Below are positions 21,162 to 39,619 of a stretch of DNA of 64,000 nt, one piece after another (positions within the stretch are counted from its first letter, which is position 1; each line of letters begins with the position of its first letter). Where the stretch lies: assembly GCF_022968795.1 (NCBI RefSeq), contig NZ_JALJRB010000002.1:124001-188000 (forward strand), read 5' to 3'. This DNA is from Desulfatitalea alkaliphila (GTDB taxonomy: Bacteria > Desulfobacterota > Desulfobacteria > Desulfobacterales > Desulfosarcinaceae). The notes below the pieces were generated by a model. It did no database searches. It was not told where the DNA came from and saw only the letters and a program-made list of their open reading frames with translations. The translations under genes and the position numbers were made by a program.

Positions 21162-21980
21162 TCAGGCGGCGCGCACCTTGAGCATCGCCCGAATCGTTTC
21201 GGGGCCGGTGTCGTAGAGGCGGTCGAGAAATACGGGGAAAAAGGTACCGGGCTTGTCGCTGGTTTGAATGGCCCGGTCGCCGCAGATGCCGTAGTAGGCG
21301 AAGGCCGCGGTGGCGGCGGCCAAATGGTCGCCGGCGCCGGGTCCGGCCACGGCGCAAAAAGCGGCGGTGATGGCGCTCAGGCCGCAGCCGATGCCCGTGA
21401 CCTTGGTCATCAGCGGTTGGCCGTTGGCCACGCGGTACACTTGACCTCCATCGGTGATGCAATCCTCGGCCCCCGACACCGCCACGATGCAGCCGGCCTC
21501 CAGGGCCAGGGCCTTAACGGCCGCCACACCGTCATCGGACAACGCCAGGCTGCTGTCCACCCCCTTGGTGCGCACATCTGCGGACACCAGGGAGAGCACT
21601 TCCGAGGCGTTGCCGCGCAGGACCGCGATGCGGCAGCGCGCCATGATGGTACGCACGGCGCGGGTGCGCAGGGTGGTGGCGCCGGCGCCCACCGGATCCA
21701 GGATCACCGGCTTGCCCAGGGCATTGGCCTTCTCGCCGGCCACGCACATGGCTTCCACCCAATCCTCCTGCAAGGTGCCGATGTTGAGCACCAGGGCGCC
21801 GGCCAGGGCGACCATCTCCTCCACCTCGGCGCGGCAGTGGGCCATCACCGGCGAGGCCCCGGCGGCCAGCAGGATGTTGGCCGTGGTCTCCATCACCACG
21901 AAGTTGGTGATGTTGTGCACCAGGGGCGCCCGGTCGCGCAGTTGCGCCAGCGCATCGACGGTATAGGCCGCCATTTCCAT
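21162..21980 (-). CDS. thiM: Hydroxyethylthiazole kinase
   Basis: The 272-aa ribokinase-fold enzyme phosphorylates the thiazole alcohol in thiamine salvage. Features: PLVHNITNFVVMETTANILLAAGASPVMAH-type N terminus (residues about 19-48), NIGTL, PVILDPVGAGAT, LRGNASEV, SGAEDCITDG and VTGIGCGLSAITAAF with the catalytic Cys in place. The ATG overlaps the hdrA stop (TGATG), so it is translated as the last gene of the hdr operon, an unusual location. No TPP riboswitch was seen. Alternative start: ATG at 21974. Confidence 0.93.
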   Translation of the reverse strand: MEMAAYTVDALAQLRDRAPLVHNITNFVVMETTANILLAAGASPVMAHCRAEVEEMVALAGALVLNIGTLQEDWVEAMCVAGEKANALGKPVILDPVGAGATTLRTRAVRTIMARCRIAVLRGNASEVLSLVSADVRTKGVDSSLALSDDGVAAVKALALEAGCIVAVSGAEDCITDGGQVYRVANGQPLMTKVTGIGCGLSAITAAFCAVAGPGAGDHLAAATAAFAYYGICGDRAIQTSDKPGTFFPVFLDRLYDTGPETIRAMLKVRAA

Positions 21981-24900
21981 CAGCCGACCTCTTCGTTGAG
22001 GGCGAAGATCTGGGCGAAGATCTGGTCGTTGTCGAAACCCTTCAAGCGGATGGCGCCGCTGCGGCAGGAGGCCACGCAGAGGCCGCACCCCTTGCACAGC
22101 ACGGGGTTGATTTGCGCCTTGCCGGTGAAAGGGCCTTTCTCGATGAAACTGGGCGCCGAGTAGGGGCAGATGGCCACGCACACCCCGCAGGCGCTGCAGT
22201 CGGCCGGACGGGTTTCGGCCACGGTGCCCGCCATGCGGATGGTCTGCTTGGCCAGCAGGGTGACCGCCCGGGTGGCCGCCGCCTGGGCCTGGGTGATGGA
22301 CTCGTCCAACGGTTTGGGCGCATGGGCCAGGCCGCAGATGAACACACCGTCGGTGGCGCAATCCACGGGGCGCAATTTGACGTGGGCCTCCATGTAGAAG
22401 CCGTCGTCGTTGAGGGTGGCCTTGTACATCTGGGCCACCGGGTTGTCCGCCGGCGGGACGATGGCGGTGGCCAGCACCAGCAGGTCGGGCCGCGCCACCA
22501 TCTTGCGGCGCAGGGCGGTGTCGGTGAAGCGCACCGCCAGGTCCTCGCCTTCGGGTTGCACCTCCAGGCCGACGGCCTCGTCGTATTTGATGAACACCAC
22601 CCCCGCCTGCCGCGCCTCGCGGTAGAGATCCTCGCGCAAGCCATAGCTGCGCATGTCCCTATAGAGCACCATCACATCCATCTCCGGACGCAGGGCTTTG
22701 AGGGCCAGGGCGCTCTTGATGGAGTGGGTGCAGCACACCTTGGAACAGTAGGGGCGGGTTTCGTTGCGCGAACCCACGCACTGAATGAACATGGCACTCT
22801 TGCAGGCCGGCAGGGTCTCATCGCCCGCGATCAACCGCCGGTCCAGTTCCAGGGCGGTCAACACCCGGGGATCCCGGCCGTAGGCGTGCAGTCCCTCGGG
22901 TTTGAACTCCGAGGCGCCCGAGGCGATGACGGTCACGCCGTGGTCCAGCACCTCCTGCTCCCCTTGACGGTCGATGGTGGTCTTGAAGTTGCCCACGAAG
23001 CCGTCCACATGGGTGATGCGGGCATTGAGGCGCACCTCGATCTTGTGGTCGGCGGCCACCTGTTGCACCATCTCGTGCACATGGGCCTGCACGTCGCCAC
23101 CATCCCAGGTCCGGTGCAGGTTGAGGGCTTGGCCGCCCAGGCGGTCGGTCTGCTCCACCAGGTAGCTCTCATAGCCTTGGGCCGACAGGGCCAGGGCGGT
23201 CGCCATGCCGGCCACGCCGCCGCCGACGATCAGGGCCCTGGGATCGATGGAGAGCTCCGGCTCCTCGAGCGGTTGCAACAGGGCCACCTTGGCCACCGCC
23301 ATGCGGGTCAGGTCCTTGGCCTTGGTGGTGGCCTCTTCCTTTGTCTGGTTGTGCACCCAGGAACACTGGTTGCGGATGTTGGCCATCTCGAAAAGGTATT
23401 TGTTGATGCCGGCGCTGGTCACCGTTTCCTGGAAAAGGGGCTCGTGGGTCTTGGGAGTGCAGGCCGAGACCACCACCCGGTTGAGCCGCTTTTCGCGGAT
23501 CACCTTGGCCATCGCCTCCTGGGTGTCCTGGCTGCAGGAGAACATGCTCTCTTCGGCATGGGCCACGTAAGGCAGCGTGCGGGCGTATTCAACGACCTGG
23601 GGCACATCCACCACCGAGGCGATGTTGGTGCCGCAACGGCAGATGAACACCCCGATGCGGGGCGCTTCGCCGCGAATGTCGGTTTCCAGCGGCGCTTCCT
23701 TGGTCAAGGTGCGGCTCCAGCGGGCCTCCACCAATCCACTGCCGGCGGCGCCGGCGGCTGCCGAGGACTCCACCACCGAAGAGGGAATGTCCATGGGCGC
23801 TTCCAAGGCGCCACAGACGTAGATCCCCGGTACCGAGGTGCGCACCGGATCGAAGCCGGGCGTGCGGGCGAAACCGTAAGCATCGACCGCGATGCCCAAC
23901 CGTTGGGTCAGGGCGCGCGCCTCGGCGCCGATGCCCAGTCCCACGGAAAGCACCACGATGTCGAAGGCCTCTTCAACCCGCCGGCCGGACGCATCCACGT
24001 AACGCAGCAGCAGATTGCCATCGGCATCGGGCACCACGTTGGTGATGCGGGACTTGACGAAGCGAACGCCGGAGGCGTCCCGGCCCCGGTTGTAATACCG
24101 TTCGAAGTCCTTGCCGTGGGTGCGAATGTCCATGTAGAAAATGGCCGTATCCAGCGGCTCGTGGCTGTGCTCCTTGGCCAGCATGGCCTCTTTGATGGCA
24201 TAGGTGCAGCACACCGAAGAGCAGTAGCCACGGGCGCCGATGTGCACGTCGCGGGAACCGACACATTGCAGCCAGGCGATCTTTTTGGGCTCCTTCTTGT
24301 CCGACGGCCTTACGAGATGGCCGCCGTAGGGGCCCGAGGCGGACAGAATGCGTTCGAACTCCAGGCTGGTGACCACATTGGGCGAGCGCTGGTAACCGTA
24401 CACATCGTGAGTGGCCGGATCGTAGGTTTCGCAACCAGCGGCCATCACCACCGAACCCACGTTCAAGATCAGCTCTTTTTCCTTGTCGTCGTACACAATC
24501 GCCCCGGTGGGGCACACCTTTGCGCAGTTGCCGCACTTGCCCTTCTGCAGATAGATGCACTGCTCCTGGTCGATGGCGTACTTGAGCGGCACCGCCTGGG
24601 CGTAACGCACATAGATCGCCTTGCGCTTTTGCAGCCCGCCGTTGTAGGTATCCACCACTTTCTTGGGGCACTTTTCGGCGCACAAGCCGCAGGCGATGCA
24701 CTTGTCCAAGTCCACAAAACGTGGATGCTGCTTGATCCGGACCTGAAAATTGCCCGCTTCTCCCGAAATCCCCTGGACTTCCGCCAGGGTCAACAACTCA
24801 ACATTTTGATGCCGGCCGACCTCGACCAGTTTGGGAGAGATAATTCAAAGCGCGCAGTCGTTGGTGGGGAACGTCTTGTCCAGCTGGGACATGATCCCGC

Positions 24901-25021
24901 CGATGGAGGTCCCGCGTTCCACCAGATAGACGTAATACCCTGAATCGGCGGCGTCCAGGGCGGCCTGCATTCCGGCGATCCCGCCGCCGACGACCATTAT
25001 GGATCCGATTTTCTCTGACAT
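21980..25021 (-). CDS. hdrA: HdrA-like heterodisulfide reductase subunit, selenocysteine-containing (UGA at 24847-24845)
   Basis: The protein is 1013 aa when UGA at 24847-24845 is read as Sec59. The N terminus has the FAD motif [17 protein letters not shown], then [11 protein letters not shown][13 protein letters not shown], where HdrA proteins normally carry Cys or Sec. Next come [4Fe-4S] motifs [11 protein letters not shown] and CGNCAKVC, then CRCGTNI. A second FAD domain begins [17 protein letters not shown], and C-terminal ferredoxin motifs are [11 protein letters not shown] and [11 protein letters not shown]. HdrA is the flavin, potentially bifurcating, subunit. AGGTGA precedes the ATG at 25021. 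A conventional caller would start it at about 24796 and lose 75 residues including the active site. It lies 8 nt from hdrB. Confidence 0.93.
24812..24847 (-). promoter_or_regulatory. Bacterial SECIS element of hdrA (UGA plus hairpin)
   Basis: On the minus strand UGA (24847-24845) is followed after 15 nt by CTGGTC (24829-24824), loop GAGGTC (24823-24818), and GGCCGG (24817-24812). This is a 6-bp stem with two G-U pairs. The loop begins with G and lies 21 nt from the UGA, within the bacterial SECIS range. The pairing is weaker than that of fdhA. Confidence 0.7.
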
Positions 25022-25029
25022 CATTTCAC

Positions 25030-25902
25030 CTATTGGGCAATGAACGCATTCACACCGCGTATCTCTTTTTTATTCTCGGCCAATCCCAACGCCTTCTCGG
25101 ACAACCCCATGGCCAACCCCAGCAGTTGCGGATAGAGGATGGAAGGCAGATCCACATCGCTCAGCCCTTCGCGCTCCATCTGCTGCTGTACCGTATCGAA
25201 TTGGATCTGGCACCAGGGGCAGGCCACGCTCAGGTAATCGGCGCCGGCGGCCTTGGCATCGGCCAACTTGCCGGCCGTCAGCTTTTTGGACAAAGCGTCG
25301 TTGACCCCCATCAGCGGGGCGCCGCAACATTCCAGCTTTTGCGACCAGTCGACACTCTTGGCCCCGGTCAGGGCCACCAGGTCATCCAATACCCGCGGCG
25401 CCACCGGATCGTCGAACTGCATCACGTCGCTGGGCCGCAGCACATGGCAGCCGTAATGGGCGGCGATCTTCAAATTCTTGAAGGGCGCCTTCACCCGCTC
25501 CTTGATGGCCGCCGTGCCGATGTCCTTGTGCAGCAAGGAAAGCAGGTGCTTGACCTCGCTCTTGCCTTCATAGGCGAGCCCCCTGCGGGCAAGGAAGCGG
25601 TTGGCCTCGGCCTTGGCGGCCGCGTCGTTGGCCAGTTGATGGGCGGCCTTTTTCAAGGTGCCGTAGCAGCACTGGCACAGGGTCAGCAAATCGACCCCTT
25701 CCGCTTCGGCCAAAGCCAGGTTACGGGCCGCAAAAAGCAGGGCGGTCTGCATATCGATGTTGCGCAGCGGGTAGCCGCAGCAATTGAAACGGCGGACATC
25801 CACCAGATCCACCTGGAGCTCCGCCAACACCACCCGGGCGGCCCGTTCGAAATGGGGCACCCGTGCCGGTATGTTACATCCTATAAAAAGCGCAAATTTC
25901 AT
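25030..25902 (-). CDS. hdrB: HdrB-like heterodisulfide reductase subunit (CCG domains)
   Basis: The 290-aa soluble protein has two cysteine-rich CCG domains: FNCCGYP and LCQCCYG, then ECCGAPL and ACPWCQ. In HdrB these bind the noncubane [4Fe-4S] clusters that cleave disulfides. It begins [14 protein letters not shown]. The start overlaps the upstream membrane subunit stop (4 nt) and the stop is 8 nt before hdrA. It is therefore the middle subunit of a membrane-HdrC/HdrB/HdrA complex. The true substrate in this organism (a thiol/disulfide, DsrC, or a ferredoxin relay) is not known. Confidence 0.92.
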
Positions 25903-27680
25903 TCGTTCACCCGCAGTCCGTCGTTGTTGTTAACACAGGACGCTTCCCGCACCGCTTGGTTTTTGAGTTCATAGAGCACATCGGTCACCTTGACCCCTTG
26001 GGGACAGTGCTCCTGGCACTGGTAACAGGTCAGGCAATTCCAGAGCATGGGCGCGCCCAGGGCCAGATCCTTGAGGCCCAACCCCAGGGAGCGCATGATC
26101 TGATGGGGCAGCAGCCCGACCGCCGCCTGGGGATCGTCGAAGGCCTGCACCACGGGACAGACGGTGGTGCAATTCTCGCAAGCGAAACAGTTGACGAAGG
26201 TGTCGGTCCGATCGGCCGCATTGCCGGTCCCCGCCTTGAATGCCGTATCAATGGGCGACACGGCGATCTCCGCCGCCGTGTCGCGCACCAGCGGAAATTT
26301 GGCCGCCATGGTTTCCAGGGCTTCGTTCACCGGCCGCTCATACCCTTCGGCCGGCAGCCGGTGGCGGTTGAGGCCACGGAACAGGGAAAAGGGCGACAAG
26401 GTATGAAAGGTGGGGCCCTCGGTGGCCAGCAGGGGCTCCCGCACGCTGAGCCACAATTCGCGCAGGTTGATGCCCGCCGGGCACACCACGGTGCAGCGGT
26501 CGCAATTGGTGCACAGATAAAACCCTTCATGCACCGCCCGCAGGTCCTCCCGTGACAGGCCCCCTCCGCGGACATACTCCCGCAGGAAGGCGAGCTTTTG
26601 CGCCGGCAGCACCAGCCGGTTGCCCTTGGCCTCGAAGGCCACCGAGACGGAGCAGCGCAGGTTGCAAGTGCCGCAGCGGGTGCAGGCATCCAGTTCCAGC
26701 ACCTGGCGCGTGGCGATATTGGCCGGCAGGGAGTGTTCGGGGTCCATCACCGCATTGGCCAGCAAGGTCAGCGTGCTGCTGAACATGTGGAGCATCTTGC
26801 TGAAGGGCAGATAGGCCAGCCCGATGAAACAGGCGAGGATATGCACATACCATAAGATGCCCACCGCGTTGACCCGGTCCAGGAACAGGGCCACCGGCGC
26901 GATGGCCTTGGCCGTGGCGTAGCTCACGAAGGCCGTCTTGTTGGGCGAGTGGCAATCGGCGCAGTTGGCCAGATGGGATTCATATCCCATCTCCAACACC
27001 TCGGGCGCAAATGGGCGCTTGAGGGTGGGCGAGACGGTGCCGAACTTCTGGACCCAGTAACTCTCCAGGGCCTCCAGCTCTTCGTCGTCCCAGATCGCGG
27101 CGTAATCCTCCACCATGTAGGTGAACTCCGTGTGGGAGCTCATCTTGGCCCCTTCCAGCAGGAAGCCGGACAGGATGATCACCCCCACGATCACGATGGT
27201 GGTCTTGTCCATGAAACCGCTCATCAAACGGGGCACCTTGATAATGAAGCGGCGGTAAATGGCGATACCCACGCCGACAATCACCATCAACCCGAAAAGG
27301 TTGCGCAGAAAGAGAAAGGGGTTGAGGGTGGAGTAGTAGTGGGGAAACAGGTTCATGGTGATGTGCTTTTCCATGGCGTGCATGAAAAACAGCATCATGA
27401 ACCCGCTGAAGATCAGCATGTGCATGCTCCAGCGCAGGCGGTCCTCCTTGAAAATCCGCGCGTGCAGCAGGACATCCAGAATCAAGGCGCGTATGAGGGC
27501 GAACAACTTGGCGCTGAACAACACGCCGACCAAACCCCGCAAAAAGGCGCTGAACCGCTGCCAGGCGGTGAACTGCCGGCCCCGGAAACCCACCTTGCGG
27601 GTGAACCAAGTGGTGATCTTGTACAACATGCCGATGGCGAAAATGGCCAAGGACGTATACAAGGCGACGGTAAAGAACAT
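25899..27680 (-). CDS. Membrane cytochrome b/c-HdrC fusion (NarI-like helices plus two ferredoxin-like modules)
   Basis: The 593-aa protein has about six transmembrane helices in the first 320 residues, with His-rich helices (HMLIFSGFMMLFFMH, WYVHILACFIGLAYL) resembling NarI/DsrM heme-b subunits. An extracytoplasmic loop carries one c-type heme motif CADCH (Cys240-His244). The C-terminal half has four Cys motifs starting at Cys333 (CTRCGTCNLRC), Cys390, Cys498 and Cys549. These form two HdrC-like pairs. This would connect the quinone pool to HdrB/HdrA. MFFTVALYTS is the start because GGAGG lies 7 nt upstream. It is distinct from EMO-type proteins because the CCG domain is separate (hdrB). Confidence 0.85.
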   Translation of the reverse strand: MFFTVALYTSLAIFAIGMLYKITTWFTRKVGFRGRQFTAWQRFSAFLRGLVGVLFSAKLFALIRALILDVLLHARIFKEDRLRWSMHMLIFSGFMMLFFMHAMEKHITMNLFPHYYSTLNPFLFLRNLFGLMVIVGVGIAIYRRFIIKVPRLMSGFMDKTTIVIVGVIILSGFLLEGAKMSSHTEFTYMVEDYAAIWDDEELEALESYWVQKFGTVSPTLKRPFAPEVLEMGYESHLANCADCHSPNKTAFVSYATAKAIAPVALFLDRVNAVGILWYVHILACFIGLAYLPFSKMLHMFSSTLTLLANAVMDPEHSLPANIATRQVLELDACTRCGTCNLRCSVSVAFEAKGNRLVLPAQKLAFLREYVRGGGLSREDLRAVHEGFYLCTNCDRCTVVCPAGINLRELWLSVREPLLATEGPTFHTLSPFSLFRGLNRHRLPAEGYERPVNEALETMAAKFPLVRDTAAEIAVSPIDTAFKAGTGNAADRTDTFVNCFACENCTTVCPVVQAFDDPQAAVGLLPHQIMRSLGLGLKDLALGAPMLWNCLTCYQCQEHCPQGVKVTDVLYELKNQAVREASCVNNNDGLRVNE

Positions 27681-27869
27681 GGAAACAGCCTCCTGCGGCA
27701 CCCCCGATGGGCGTCGGCCCCTTATTGTGGTTTACCGAACGCACCAGTTCATGGTTCCGGGTCGATTACAAGGTAACCGCAAGCCTTAGCCCTTCAACCA
27801 ACGAAAATCAAGACCTTTGTCACCCGCCCCGCAACACGCCATACTTCCGGCAAAGCCGCGCCGAAATTG

Positions 27870-27887: not shown

Positions 27888-27969
27888 ACAAATTTTCGGC
27901 CCGCCCCTTTCCTTTTGTTACCGAAAGCAGTATGGACATCGAATGACCATTCTCTTGCAAGGAGGTGTT

Positions 27970-28803
27970 ATGTTTACCATCGTAAAACGGGAGGAAATGG
28001 CGCAGGGCACGGTGATTCTGAACGAGATCGAAGCGCCCCTGATCGCCCGCAAGGCCCAACCCGGACAGTTCGTGATTCTCAAGGCCAACGAAGAGGGAGA
28101 GCGCATCCCGTTGACCATGGCGGAAACCGATGCCGCCAAAGGCACCATCACCATCATCTACATGGTAGTGGGCAAATCCACCGCCGTGTTTCGCGACCTG
28201 CAGGTGGGCGATGCCTACCAGGACGTGATCGGCCCCTTGGGCAAACCCACCCATGTGGAAAAGGTCGGCAAGGTGCTCTGCGTGGGCGGCGGCACCGGCG
28301 TGGCCGTGCTGCACCCCATCACGCGGGCCTTCAAGGAGGCCGGCAACGACGTCACCTGCATCATCGGCGCGCGCAGCAAGGATCTGCTGATCCTGGAGGA
28401 CAAGATGAAGGCCGCCTCCAATGACCTGCGGGTCTGCACCGACGACGGCTCCTACGGCCATCACGGTTTCGTGACCGATGTGGTCAAGGCGGTTCTGGAC
28501 AAAGAGAAGGTGGATCAGGCCGTGGCCATCGGGCCGGTGCCCATGATGAAGGCGGTGTGCGCCATCACCAAGCAATACGATGTGCCCACCCTGGTGAGCC
28601 TCAACCCGATCATGATCGACGGCACGGGCATGTGCGGCGGCTGCCGGGTGACGGTGGGCGACAAAACCAAGTTCGCCTGCGTGGACGGCCCGGAGTTCGA
28701 CGGCCACCAGGTCAATTTCGACGAGCTGCAGACCCGCTTGCGGGCTTACATGGAAGAAGAGAAAGCGTGTTACGATTCGCACTGCCGACTGGTCGGGGCG
28801 TGA
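27970..28803 (+). CDS. nfnA: NfnA: NAD(H)-dependent ferredoxin:NADP oxidoreductase, small subunit
   Basis: The 277-aa FAD/NAD-binding protein resembles dihydroorotate dehydrogenase electron-transfer subunits. The FAD domain is PGQFVILKANEEGERIPLT, the nucleotide-binding motif is CVGGGTGVAVLHP, and the C-terminal [2Fe-2S] cysteines are in MCGGCRV and FACVDG. With NfnB it forms a flavin-based electron-bifurcating complex that couples NADH and ferredoxin to NADP. The start follows AAGGAGG at 7 nt. It lies 21 nt before nfnB and is divergent from the hdr operon. Confidence 0.93.
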   Translation: MFTIVKREEMAQGTVILNEIEAPLIARKAQPGQFVILKANEEGERIPLTMAETDAAKGTITIIYMVVGKSTAVFRDLQVGDAYQDVIGPLGKPTHVEKVGKVLCVGGGTGVAVLHPITRAFKEAGNDVTCIIGARSKDLLILEDKMKAASNDLRVCTDDGSYGHHGFVTDVVKAVLDKEKVDQAVAIGPVPMMKAVCAITKQYDVPTLVSLNPIMIDGTGMCGGCRVTVGDKTKFACVDGPEFDGHQVNFDELQTRLRAYMEEEKACYDSHCRLVGA

Positions 28804-28824
28804 AGTTATAAAGGAGGAAAGATC

Positions 28825-30228
28825 ATGGCAAAGAACAAGGAAAAGGCCGGCCGCGTGGCCATGCCCGAACAGCCGCCGGAGGTGCGCAAGCGCAATTTCG
28901 ATGAGGTGCCGTTGGGCTATACGGTGGCCATGGCCCAGGAAGAGGCGGCCCGCTGCATCCAATGCAAAAAACCGGGATGCGTGACCGGTTGTCCGGTGCA
29001 GGTGGACATCCCCGGGTTCATCCGAATGGTCACCGAAGGGGATTTCACCGGCGCCATCCGCTACATCTGGTCCCAGAACGCCTTGCCGGCGGTCTGCGGC
29101 CGGGTCTGCCCCCAGGAGATCCAGTGCGAGGGCGAGTGCGTCCTGGGCAAAAAGGGAGAACCCATCGCCATCGGCAACCTGGAGCGTTTCTGCGCCGACT
29201 ATGAACGCGAGCACGGCACCGGCGCGCTGCCGCCCCAGGCGCAATCCACCGGCAAGCGCATCGCCGTGGTGGGCTCGGGCCCCTCGGGCCTGACCGTGGC
29301 CGGCGACCTGATCCGCAAGGGCCACGATGTGACGGTCATGGAGGCGTTTCACAAACCCGGCGGCGTGCTGGCCTACGGCATTCCCGAATTCCGCCTGCCC
29401 AAGGCCATCGTGGCCCAGGAGGTCAACTTCCTGGAACGCCAGGGCGTCAAGCTGGAGTGCAACATGGTGGTGGGCCGCACCGTCACCCTGGACGAACTGT
29501 TCGAGCAGGGATACGACGCCATCTATCTGAGCGTGGGGGCGGGCCTGCCCCGTTTCATGAACATACCGGGCGAAAACCTGATCGGCATCCTGTCGGCCAA
29601 CGAGTACCTGACCCGCGCCAACTTGATGAAGGCCTACAAGTTCCCCGATGTGGACACCCCGATTCCCAAGGGGAAAAACGTCATCGTGCTGGGCGCCGGC
29701 AACGTGGCCATGGACTCGGCCCGCACCGCAATGCGCCTGGGCGCCGAGACGGTGCGCATCGTCTACCGCCGTTCGCGGGAAGAGATGCCGGCACGGGCGG
29801 CCGAAATCCACCATGCCGAGGAAGAGGGCATCGAACTGTTCCTGTTGAGCAACCCGGTACGCTACCTGGGCGACGACAAAGGCCGCCTGACCGGCATGGA
29901 GTGCCTCAAGATGGAACTGGGCGAACCCGACGATTCCGGCCGGCGCCGTCCGGTACCGGTCAAGGGGTCGGAGTTCACCCTGGACGCCGATCTGGTAGTG
30001 GTGGCCGTGGGTTCGGGCGCCAATCCGCTGCTGACCCAATCCACCCCCGACCTGGGACTGAACCAGTGGGGCTACATCCTGGCCGATCCGCAGACGGGCA
30101 AGACCACCAAAAAAGGTGTCTGGGCCGGTGGCGACATCGTCACCGGCGCCGCCACGGTGATTCTGGCCATGGGCGCCGGACGCAGCGCGGCCGATGATAT
30201 TCACAAGTACCTGGAGTGGGGCTGGTAG
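28825..30228 (+). CDS. nfnB: NfnB: NADPH-binding large subunit (GltA-type)
   Basis: The 467-aa protein has N-terminal iron-sulfur cysteines CIQCKKPGCVTGC and CGRVCPQEIQCEGEC. Two Rossmann motifs follow, VVGSGPSGLTVAGDL and VLGAGNVAMDSARTA, with YRRSREEMPARAAE. It ends with GGDIVTGAATVILAMGAG. This is the glutamate-synthase small-subunit-like fold of NfnB; the adjacent NfnA makes the bifurcating transhydrogenase assignment stronger than glutamate synthase. AAGGAGG is upstream. A terminator follows at 30239-30269. Confidence 0.93.
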   Translation: MAKNKEKAGRVAMPEQPPEVRKRNFDEVPLGYTVAMAQEEAARCIQCKKPGCVTGCPVQVDIPGFIRMVTEGDFTGAIRYIWSQNALPAVCGRVCPQEIQCEGECVLGKKGEPIAIGNLERFCADYEREHGTGALPPQAQSTGKRIAVVGSGPSGLTVAGDLIRKGHDVTVMEAFHKPGGVLAYGIPEFRLPKAIVAQEVNFLERQGVKLECNMVVGRTVTLDELFEQGYDAIYLSVGAGLPRFMNIPGENLIGILSANEYLTRANLMKAYKFPDVDTPIPKGKNVIVLGAGNVAMDSARTAMRLGAETVRIVYRRSREEMPARAAEIHHAEEEGIELFLLSNPVRYLGDDKGRLTGMECLKMELGEPDDSGRRRPVPVKGSEFTLDADLVVVAVGSGANPLLTQSTPDLGLNQWGYILADPQTGKTTKKGVWAGGDIVTGAATVILAMGAGRSAADDIHKYLEWGW

Positions 30229-38797: not shown

Positions 38798-39619
38798 ATG
38801 CAGACTGCCTTCGTCGCGGCCCTGCTGATTTACATGCTCAGCGCGGCCGCCTATTGCGCCTACCTCTTTTTGCAACGCAACCCGTTGCAGCAAGCGGGCA
38901 ACCTCCTGCTGGTGACGGGCTTCACCGCCCACACCCTGGCCATCGGCTGGGCATTCGCCGCCACGGGCCACTTTCCGGCGGGCAACCTGCACGAGACCCT
39001 CTCCGTGACGGCTTGGTCCATCGCCGGCGCCTACCTGCTGCTGGGCCTCAAGTTCCACTTGAAAATCCTGGGCGCCTACGTGGCGCCGCTGACCGTTTTC
39101 ATTCTCCTGGCCGCATTCCAGTTCCCGCGCACGCCGACCCAACCGGAGAACCTGCTCCAGGGGGTGTGGCTCACCACCCACATCGTCACCATTTTCCTGG
39201 GCTATGCGGCCTTCATCCTGGCCGCCGGCACGGGGGTGCTCTACCTGCTGCAGGAACGCAACATCAAAGCCAAAACCCGCGGTTTTTTTTTCAAACGGCT
39301 GCCCTCTCTCGATATGCTTGACACCACCGGATATGCGTGTATTGTGTTCGGTTTTACCATGCTCACCATCGGCCTGATCACCGGCATGGTTTACGCCAAG
39401 GCCGTTTGGGGCCGCTTCTGGGCCTGGGACCCCAAGGAGGCGTGGTCGGCGGTGGTCTGGATCTTTTACGCGGTTCTGCTGCACGAACGGTTGGCGGTGG
39501 GGTGGCGCGGCCGCCGCACCGCCATCATGGCCATAGCGGGGGTGGGCGTGTTGTTGTTCGCCTTCCTGGGCGTCAATTTTCTGCTCAAAGGGCATCACGG
39601 CCAGTTCACCCAGTGGTGA
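38798..39619 (+). CDS. Cytochrome c biogenesis protein CcsA/HemX family
   Basis: The 273-aa integral membrane protein has about eight helices. The heme-handling WWD-type motif is WGRFWAWDPKEAWS near residue 203, with flanking conserved His residues (TTHIVTIFLGY, LLHERLAVG). CcsA with CcsB attaches heme to apocytochromes c; a HemX role in regulating HemA is the alternative, since hemA follows 42 nt later. AAGGA is upstream. A T9 run at 39292-39300 within the gene encodes Gly-Phe-Phe-Phe and could be prone to slippage. Confidence 0.9.
   Translation: MQTAFVAALLIYMLSAAAYCAYLFLQRNPLQQAGNLLLVTGFTAHTLAIGWAFAATGHFPAGNLHETLSVTAWSIAGAYLLLGLKFHLKILGAYVAPLTVFILLAAFQFPRTPTQPENLLQGVWLTTHIVTIFLGYAAFILAAGTGVLYLLQERNIKAKTRGFFFKRLPSLDMLDTTGYACIVFGFTMLTIGLITGMVYAKAVWGRFWAWDPKEAWSAVVWIFYAVLLHERLAVGWRGRRTAIMAIAGVGVLLFAFLGVNFLLKGHHGQFTQW

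Follow-up and report, generated by a model that had tools for sequence, protein, structure and literature searches.

A selenocysteine-containing tandem HdrA encoded with HdrB and a cytochrome b/c-HdrC membrane subunit in Desulfatitalea alkaliphila: a candidate membrane-anchored HdrABC with exchangeable partner modules

In the 64,000-nucleotide stretch of Desulfatitalea alkaliphila DNA analysed here (contig NZ_JALJRB010000002.1, positions 124,001 to 188,000; hereafter the window, with positions counted from its first letter), an operon on the - strand, 27680-21980, encodes a membrane subunit with cytochrome b helices, a c-heme loop and HdrC-like iron-sulfur (Fe-S) domains (called MEM below), a separate HdrB and a tandem HdrA with a predicted selenocysteine (Sec). 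The three genes recur together in relatives, where they are joined to different partner modules. The evidence leans, if only somewhat, towards a membrane-anchored HdrABC in which electron bifurcation or confurcation would probably connect the flavin chemistry of NAD(P)H and ferredoxin with quinone, cytochrome c or both. Flavin-based bifurcation by HdrA is familiar chiefly from soluble complexes; a conserved membrane version would, if the proposal is true, tie bifurcation straight to the respiratory membrane, much like FixABCX, whose flavoprotein is unrelated.

Architecture of the operon and of the membrane subunit

The three genes overlap or nearly touch, and the open reading frames (ORFs) were confirmed as laid out in the preliminary description of this DNA. 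The stop of MEM overlaps the start of HdrB (ATGA), and most MEM homologues align from about M8. The features are as follows.

25899..27680, - strand: MEM, cytochrome b-HdrC membrane subunit; ATG at 27680, stop at 25899-25901, alternative start GTG at 27701
26949..26963, - strand: CADCH c-heme loop of MEM, residues 247-251, preceding the last transmembrane helix; CxxCH in 105/105 full-length rows
26469..26696, - strand: first HdrC-like Fe-S domain of MEM, Cys 340-350 and 397-407; Fer4_8, 8 Cys in 105/105
25944..26192, - strand: second HdrC-like Fe-S domain of MEM, Cys 505-515 and 556-566; TIGR03290 (E 2.5e-19), 8 Cys in 105/105
25030..25902, - strand: HdrB with two CCG domains; TIGR03288 (E 9e-76), PF02754 in two stretches
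21980..25024, - strand: tandem HdrA selenoprotein, 1014 amino acids; ATG at 25024, 5 nt past the HdrB stop
23735..25003, - strand: half 1 of HdrA, with flavin adenine dinucleotide (FAD) domain, inserted ferredoxin domain, Sec60 and E224/K278, lacking the N-terminal domain (alignment to 5odc)
22001..23668, - strand: half 2 of HdrA, with N-terminal cluster domain, second FAD domain and C-terminal ferredoxin domain (alignment to 5odc)
24845..24847, - strand: predicted Sec60 codon, an in-frame TGA (residue 59 from the second ATG); TGA in 74 rows, Cys in 16
24812..24829, - strand: hairpin like a Sec insertion sequence (SECIS), 18 nt, starting 15 nt past the UGA (row comparison)

The N-terminal part of MEM matches Nitrate_red_gam (E 2e-6) and is followed by matches to HdrC/Fer4 and dicluster Fe-S families, with four CX2CX2CX3C motifs that supply 16 Fe-S cysteines. 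Conservation was read from 108 rows, of which 3 were dropped for stops; as for HdrA, HdrB and the Sec counts below, they take in the window itself and some duplicate loci. In all 105 remaining full-length rows C247, C250, H251, H94, H108, H305 and the 16 Fe-S cysteines are invariant, and H287 is kept in 104. The heme and cysteine ligands, whose absence from homologues had been named beforehand as a ground for doubting the complex, are thus kept.

An AlphaFold model of MEM, built from 44 sequences (mean pLDDT, the predicted local distance difference test, 77), was closest in fold to EtfD of M. smegmatis (PDB 9ojn; VIA Z 21.4, 330 aligned residues, root-mean-square deviation 3.7). NarI aligned with residues 1-319 at Z ~11 and HdrC with residues 467-581 at Z ~11-12, both fold matches resting on the second look with VIA, as Foldseek alone gave a single match with E <0.001. 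Profiles, fold and conservation therefore agree with the earlier account of a membrane subunit that joins NarI-like helices, a CxxCH loop and two pairs of HdrC-like motifs. Likewise, the view that MEM is distinct from QmoABC, DsrMK and one-chain EMO proteins was borne out: membership of MEM in QmoC or DsrK was rejected on scores far under the cut-offs (68.3 bits for QmoC model NF038018, cut-off 300, where the genome's own QmoC scores 508; 30.5 bits for DsrK model NF045796, cut-off 400, for which HdrB was unlisted), and the CCG domains sit only in the separate HdrB gene, not on the MEM chain. In its own genome MEM has one full-length match.

The loop at residues 188-277 holds 6 K+R against 14 D+E, and that at residues 30-90 holds 12 K+R against 3 D+E. 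On hydropathy and charge, MEM probably has five helices, with the CADCH loop in the periplasm and the Fe-S domains on the cytoplasmic side. Residues 50-85, also hydrophobic, form short helices in the model and were taken to lie at the membrane surface.

A sister class of MEM without CxxCH occurs in the genus of the window (L092, L094, L095/L169; loci are numbered with L) and is absent from the 105-row set because one continuous match was required there. In L169 (5457-8595), the member of this class whose flank is long enough to be read, the heme-less MEM gene lies directly beside a gene for a 16-CxxCH class III cytochrome c, which lies upstream; the one built-in heme has apparently given way to a separate multiheme protein. 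The invariant c-heme and this neighbourhood, together with proteins of 6 and 7 CxxCH motifs in L171 and a TmcA-like c3 in L192 (78 bits against a cut-off of 114), are what one would expect if the c-heme were the real partner and the complex joined cytoplasmic carriers with periplasmic or extracellular cytochromes, quinone being unused. However, MEM has a NarI-type fold with four conserved His, and its EtfD-like relatives are quinone enzymes; a route that bypasses quinone altogether is accordingly held to be very improbable.

HdrB and the thiol-disulfide alternative

HdrB holds both CCG domains, as in soluble HdrABC, and their cysteines are kept in 109/109 rows, except C78 (108) and C79 (101). 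HdrB also matches SdhE (E 8e-54). The intact pair of CCG sites would suit an enzyme like DsrMK or HdrDE, in which HdrB acts on a disulfide of the DsrC type, reducing it (or oxidising it), and quinol or cytochrome c is the electron source. In the same direction points a related complex of HotSeep-1, for which the available text of PMC10553843 proposes DsrC or ferredoxin as the target (this and the other papers cited are quoted from the passages available). The sulfite reductase gene dsrA is present in the window's own genome and in 19 of 24 genomes chosen for having MEM-HdrB with HdrA, or at minimum its beginning, downstream (the heme-less MEM is that of three genomes among the 24). Yet dsrA, by which this was judged in place of DsrC itself, is missing from the other 5, which are 93-98% complete, and the MEM-HdrB pair is also found with GlpA. 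GlpC and SdhE, which are CCG proteins as well, work without a disulfide substrate. The thiol-disulfide role suggested for HdrB in the preliminary description is consequently not favoured and appears improbable as the main function; an obligatory link of the trio to sulfite reduction is weakened, and a role of DsrC is possible without being required.

HdrA is a tandem selenoprotein

The identification of the third gene as HdrA stood, while its tandem nature, which emerged from alignment to 5odc, had been missed. Codon 60 is TGA in 74 rows and TGT or TGC in 16, all with the FPTN motif; these rows also include a few HdrA genes not adjoining MEM. The hairpin CTGGTCGAGGTCGGCCGG was found exactly in 70/74 TGA rows and in 0/16 Cys rows, and the alifold consensus energy was -9.95 kcal/mol for 70 unique TGA contexts as against about 0 for 15 unique Cys contexts. 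In the window's own genome tRNA-Sec and SelB scored over curated cut-offs. Sec at residue 60, described earlier as Sec59, is thus well supported by the comparison of sequences. A frameshift, a pseudogene or a true stop at TGA60 was rejected, given the more than 900 conserved residues that follow, the TGA/Cys swap and the hairpin. The final TGA (residue 1015) was also considered as a second Sec codon and rejected: 34/37 rows are gapped there and the start of thiM overlaps it.

Sec60 aligns with Cys197 of HdrA from M. thermolithotrophicus (5odc_A), a ligand which, according to the accessible part of PMC9012536, each HdrA of the dimer contributes to its partner's N-terminal cluster. Half 2 has no residue equivalent to Sec60 in its sequence and, therefore, Sec60 probably completes the half-2 cluster within one chain; such cluster complementarity is described for tandem or fused HdrA of ANME archaea in the same source. 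The predicted Fe-S cysteines of HdrA are kept in 36-37 of 37 rows. E224 and K278 of half 1 are kept in 37/37, and half 2 has D or Q at the E site in 36/37. The bifurcation pair cited in the available text of PMC9430772 is E356/K409 in Mt HdrA numbering; half 1 carries the equivalent residues, and on this residue evidence HdrA would be of the bifurcating kind.

Recurrence with exchangeable partners

With split forms included, MEM-like genes (E <= 1e-60) were found in 54 of 395 genomes sampled from the phylum, a count that includes the genome of the window. The search for the same gene order, proposed at the outset, recovered MEM-HdrB-HdrA repeatedly: HdrB follows MEM at 75/80 loci (67/70 where the downstream sequence suffices), and HdrA or its Sec-bearing N-terminal part is present at 62/80 (56/67). 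Many contigs end within the operon, and the counts per locus take in related genomes. Among 34 loci with >=7.98 kb downstream, 12 have MvhD and a Flx-like set, 4 have NuoE/NuoF with HdrA, 11 have HdrA without Flx or Nuo, 5 have HdrB only and 2 have neither. Neighbouring ORFs were called mechanically and labelled by BLAST to chosen references, 'Flx' being an interpretation of the MvhD, AsrA/HydB-like and HydG-like families; the Pfam and NCBIfam matches, obtained for representatives, agree with the labels.

In a quick tree of 60 of the 109 distinct MEM rows, those with enough flanking sequence, the window forms a supported set with L010 and L012 (SH-aLRT, a Shimodaira-Hasegawa-like branch test, 100); the Glp rows are long-branched, and L009, L011 and L014, also close to the window, are left out. 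Within the supported set, L012 has MvhD-cl4-FlxB-FlxA downstream of HdrA. The contexts need 22 changes on the tree, the least possible being 10 and the shuffled mean 39.1, and they are therefore clustered, yet have switched repeatedly.

The order in L184 is MetF-MEM-HdrB-HdrA-MvhD-MetV-MetF, that in L186 is identical as far as MetV, where its contig ends, and L185 has MEM-HdrB-HdrA-MetV-MetF. In L171, L181 and L182 HdrA-MvhD-MetV-MetF is joined to a split MEM, with multiheme proteins also present in L171, and L085 and L058 lie in clusters for carbon monoxide dehydrogenase (CODH) or CODH/acetyl-CoA synthase. MetF was also found at 4 of 29 short loci, L108-L136 (L122, L124, L126 and L129, from three families), with flanks of <=1.5 kb on each side, against an expectation of ~0.1-0.2 (19 genomes, about 67.5 Mb in all, gave 88 MetF-like matches), which is to be read knowing that these genomes were partly picked for having MetF and that the short loci were scanned with more MetF queries. 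Formate dehydrogenase-like genes occur in L191 and in L188, in the latter as a fragment that falls narrowly short of the TIGR01591 cut-off; BLAST adds L180 and L059. In L176 (G426:C43) two divergent Hdr operons stand side by side, HdrA-MvhD-cl4-FlxB-FlxA and MEM-HdrB-HdrA(N)-NuoE, as if module exchange were under way.

In L164, L165 and L170 MEM-HdrB is paired with GlpA (of the three, L164 was scanned and scored above the TIGR03377 cut-off), and no HdrA lies within the fetched 14-15 kb. A glycerol kinase-like gene, HdrB, MEM and GlpA form one cluster in L164 and L165, which reads as a glycerol-3-phosphate dehydrogenase like GlpABC, but anchored by a cytochrome b/c-HdrC protein. Such loci, the SdhE match of HdrB and the standing of EtfD as top fold match of MEM would fit a conduit without bifurcation, in which MEM-HdrB does no more than pass electrons from a cytoplasmic flavoprotein to quinone in the manner of GlpC, SdhE or EMO and HdrA serves as a relay or as a simple ferredoxin:quinone oxidoreductase. 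Against it, E224/K278 are conserved in every row with the inserted ferredoxin domain intact, and the modules that accompany HdrA (Flx, Nuo, MetVF, Fdh) are the same as at HdrA hubs already known. We regard the simple conduit as unlikely, though it is the likeliest of the alternatives.

Comparison with described complexes

The preliminary description allowed that the same architecture might already be known as a characterised complex; none of the exact MEM-HdrB-HdrA form was found in the full-text literature, the Appel 2021 review, which possibly covers it, and supplements lying outside that search. To call the electron route undescribed was nevertheless too strong, in view of the EtfD fold and of the HdrF type, named in 2009 in Desulfobacterium autotrophicum HRM2 (PMC2702500, available in part). 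HdrF, like MEM with HdrB, joins membrane helices with HdrC and HdrB domains; one of the three, HdrF1, is encoded by two genes. It adjoins GlpAB or EtfBA, as GlpA adjoins MEM-HdrB in some relatives. Compared by description only, HRM2 HdrF differs in that the available text describes no HdrA operon with it and mentions no c-heme. HotSeep-1, also a sulfate reducer, combines HdrA with a protein that carries CCG and heme c; unlike in MEM and HdrB, the two are reported there on a single protein, again compared by description only (PMC10553843, in part).

Judged by the model, MEM and HdrB together resemble a split EMO/EtfD, with NarI-like helices followed by an HdrC-like Fe-S domain, but with HdrB separate, the CxxCH loop present and HdrA as partner instead of an electron-transfer flavoprotein (ETF). 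In EtfD the CCG domain is fused on the same chain. With soluble HdrABC-MvhAGD and FlxABCD-HdrABC the trio shares homologous HdrA modules, a full-length HdrB and, in relatives, the same input modules. Unlike soluble HdrABC, which has a separate HdrC of ~185 residues, the HdrC-like domains are fused to a cytochrome b with c-heme and HdrA is tandem; unlike FlxABCD-HdrABC, the operon in the window lacks Flx-like and MvhD genes, which L012 and 11 more of the 34 loci have. In HdrDE an HdrC-HdrB fusion is combined with a separate HdrE, whereas here cytochrome b is fused to HdrC and HdrB is separate. The gene sets of L184 and L186 are like the Type IV MetFV-HdrABC-MvhD of Moorella and Sporomusa; unlike these acetogen clusters, for which the accessible passages give no known membrane subunit, both loci encode one, the window's own locus being without MetVF (PMC9430772, PMC8578096, PMC13040438).

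Proposed function

As partner modules are swapped, MEM-HdrB can be read as an outlet to the membrane that different modules share, with HdrA in the role of a hub like that of the soluble methanogen complexes. The three products would form one complex in which MEM unites an HdrE/NarI-like cytochrome b with HdrC, and HdrB is a separate subunit. The two halves of the tandem HdrA would pair as a pseudo-dimer within one chain, the N-terminal Fe-S cluster of half 2 being completed by Sec60 from half 1. Ferredoxin would exchange electrons with HdrA through the inserted ferredoxin domain, and an NAD(P)H-type module, encoded elsewhere in the genome, would meet the C-terminal ferredoxin domain by way of MvhD/Flx or Nuo parts. 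From HdrA the presumed direction of flow is to the HdrC clusters, to HdrB and the b-hemes, and on to quinone, the likely partner, and/or the periplasmic c-heme, while bifurcation or confurcation, involving NADH, ferredoxin and quinone, probably takes place at the half-1 flavin. Menaquinone has a potential near -75 mV. With methyl-THF/methylene-THF (THF, tetrahydrofolate) near -200 mV, NADH at -320 mV and ferredoxin at about -450 mV (PMC6295475, available text), either the bifurcation of electrons from NADH or the joint formation of NADH by quinol and ferredoxin (confurcation) would be feasible.

This membrane-anchored HdrABC is preferred because the trio is conserved with its ligands and with E224/K278, because L012 has a Flx set and the window's own genome a Nuo/Flx set, and because MetVF, FdhA or GlpA replace Flx/Nuo elsewhere and a 16-heme cytochrome adjoins the heme-less MEM of L169. 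QmoC and CcsB over cut-off in the own genome were also counted in its favour. The Nuo/Flx set reads HdrA N-part (Sec)-NuoE-NuoF-HdrA-MvhD-cl4-FlxB-FlxA, with no MEM seen beside it; 628 bases separate its start from the end of the contig, and an adjoining MEM could therefore be missed, though there is no other full-length MEM in the genome. The genome further has HdrA-MvhD-MetV-MetF (L160).

Several observations weigh on the other side. The operon in the window has no MvhD, Flx or Nuo gene, and neither has the sequenced part of the close relative L009, whose contig ends soon past HdrA. MEM-HdrB stands without HdrA at 5/34 loci, and 2/34 have neither. In the own genome the menD and mqnC models stayed below cut-off, and thus a quinone route was not found with them. 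MEM was modelled singly with a mean pLDDT of only 77, and residues 50-85, if membrane-spanning, could alter its topology. No biochemistry on a MEM-HdrB-HdrA complex was found in the literature, and the related enzymes of S. ovata (PMC9430772) and M. thermoacetica (PMC8578096) gave no bifurcation in vitro, as far as the available text of both goes.

What looks new is the modularity, in which MEM-HdrB(-HdrA) goes with Flx or NuoEF as NADH modules, with MvhD-MetVF (MetVF being methylene-THF reductase), with formate dehydrogenase or with GlpA; one core attached to different fuel enzymes may explain how several anaerobic pathways reach respiration. In the available passages the membrane partner of Sporomusa MetFV-HdrCBA-MvhD could not be identified, and for Moorella a quinone is suspected (PMC9430772, PMC8578096, PMC13040438). 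Since operons like L184 and L186 have a cytochrome b/c-HdrC gene in just this place, the question is now testable, and the trio is possibly the missing membrane partner; the test would run in the direction of methyl-THF oxidation, used by acetate-oxidising anaerobes. Tentatively, and with more doubt than confidence, we extend this to a modular bifurcating HdrABC, coupled to quinone or cytochrome, with modules for NADH, formate, glycerol-3-phosphate and methylene-THF exchanged among Desulfobacterota, that includes the membrane partner of the MetFV-Hdr enzymes.

Neighbouring genes and other Hdr genes of the genome

The immediate neighbours of the operon are ThiM-like and NfnAB-like genes, ETF genes not being adjacent.

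27943..30228 (27943-28803; 28825-30228), + strand: NfnAB-like divergent pair, by profile matches

NfnAB genes also lie upstream on the same strand in the close relative L010 and near L075, and there are none within 8 kb upstream of L009; the pair in the window is likely a metabolic neighbour and no subunit. The ThiM-like hydroxyethylthiazole kinase gene (21162-21980, - strand) may be co-translated with HdrA since its start codon overlaps the HdrA stop (TGATG). At 11 kb from the operon lies a CcsB-type cytochrome c biogenesis gene (38798-39619, + strand; TIGR03144 over cut-off), and machinery for c-heme attachment is therefore at least partly present.

Elsewhere in the genome, L162 (6730-10226; G000:C12, about 313-316 kb) encodes a 490-residue protein with seven CxxCH motifs and a NarI-like domain, adjoined by a 654-residue Fe-S/CCG protein, which makes another membrane complex. 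The ORFs of ~1480 residues in L158 (2811-7238) and L159 (1795-6255), whose last 850 residues match HdrA (50-51%), resemble the HdrL fusions reported in HRM2.

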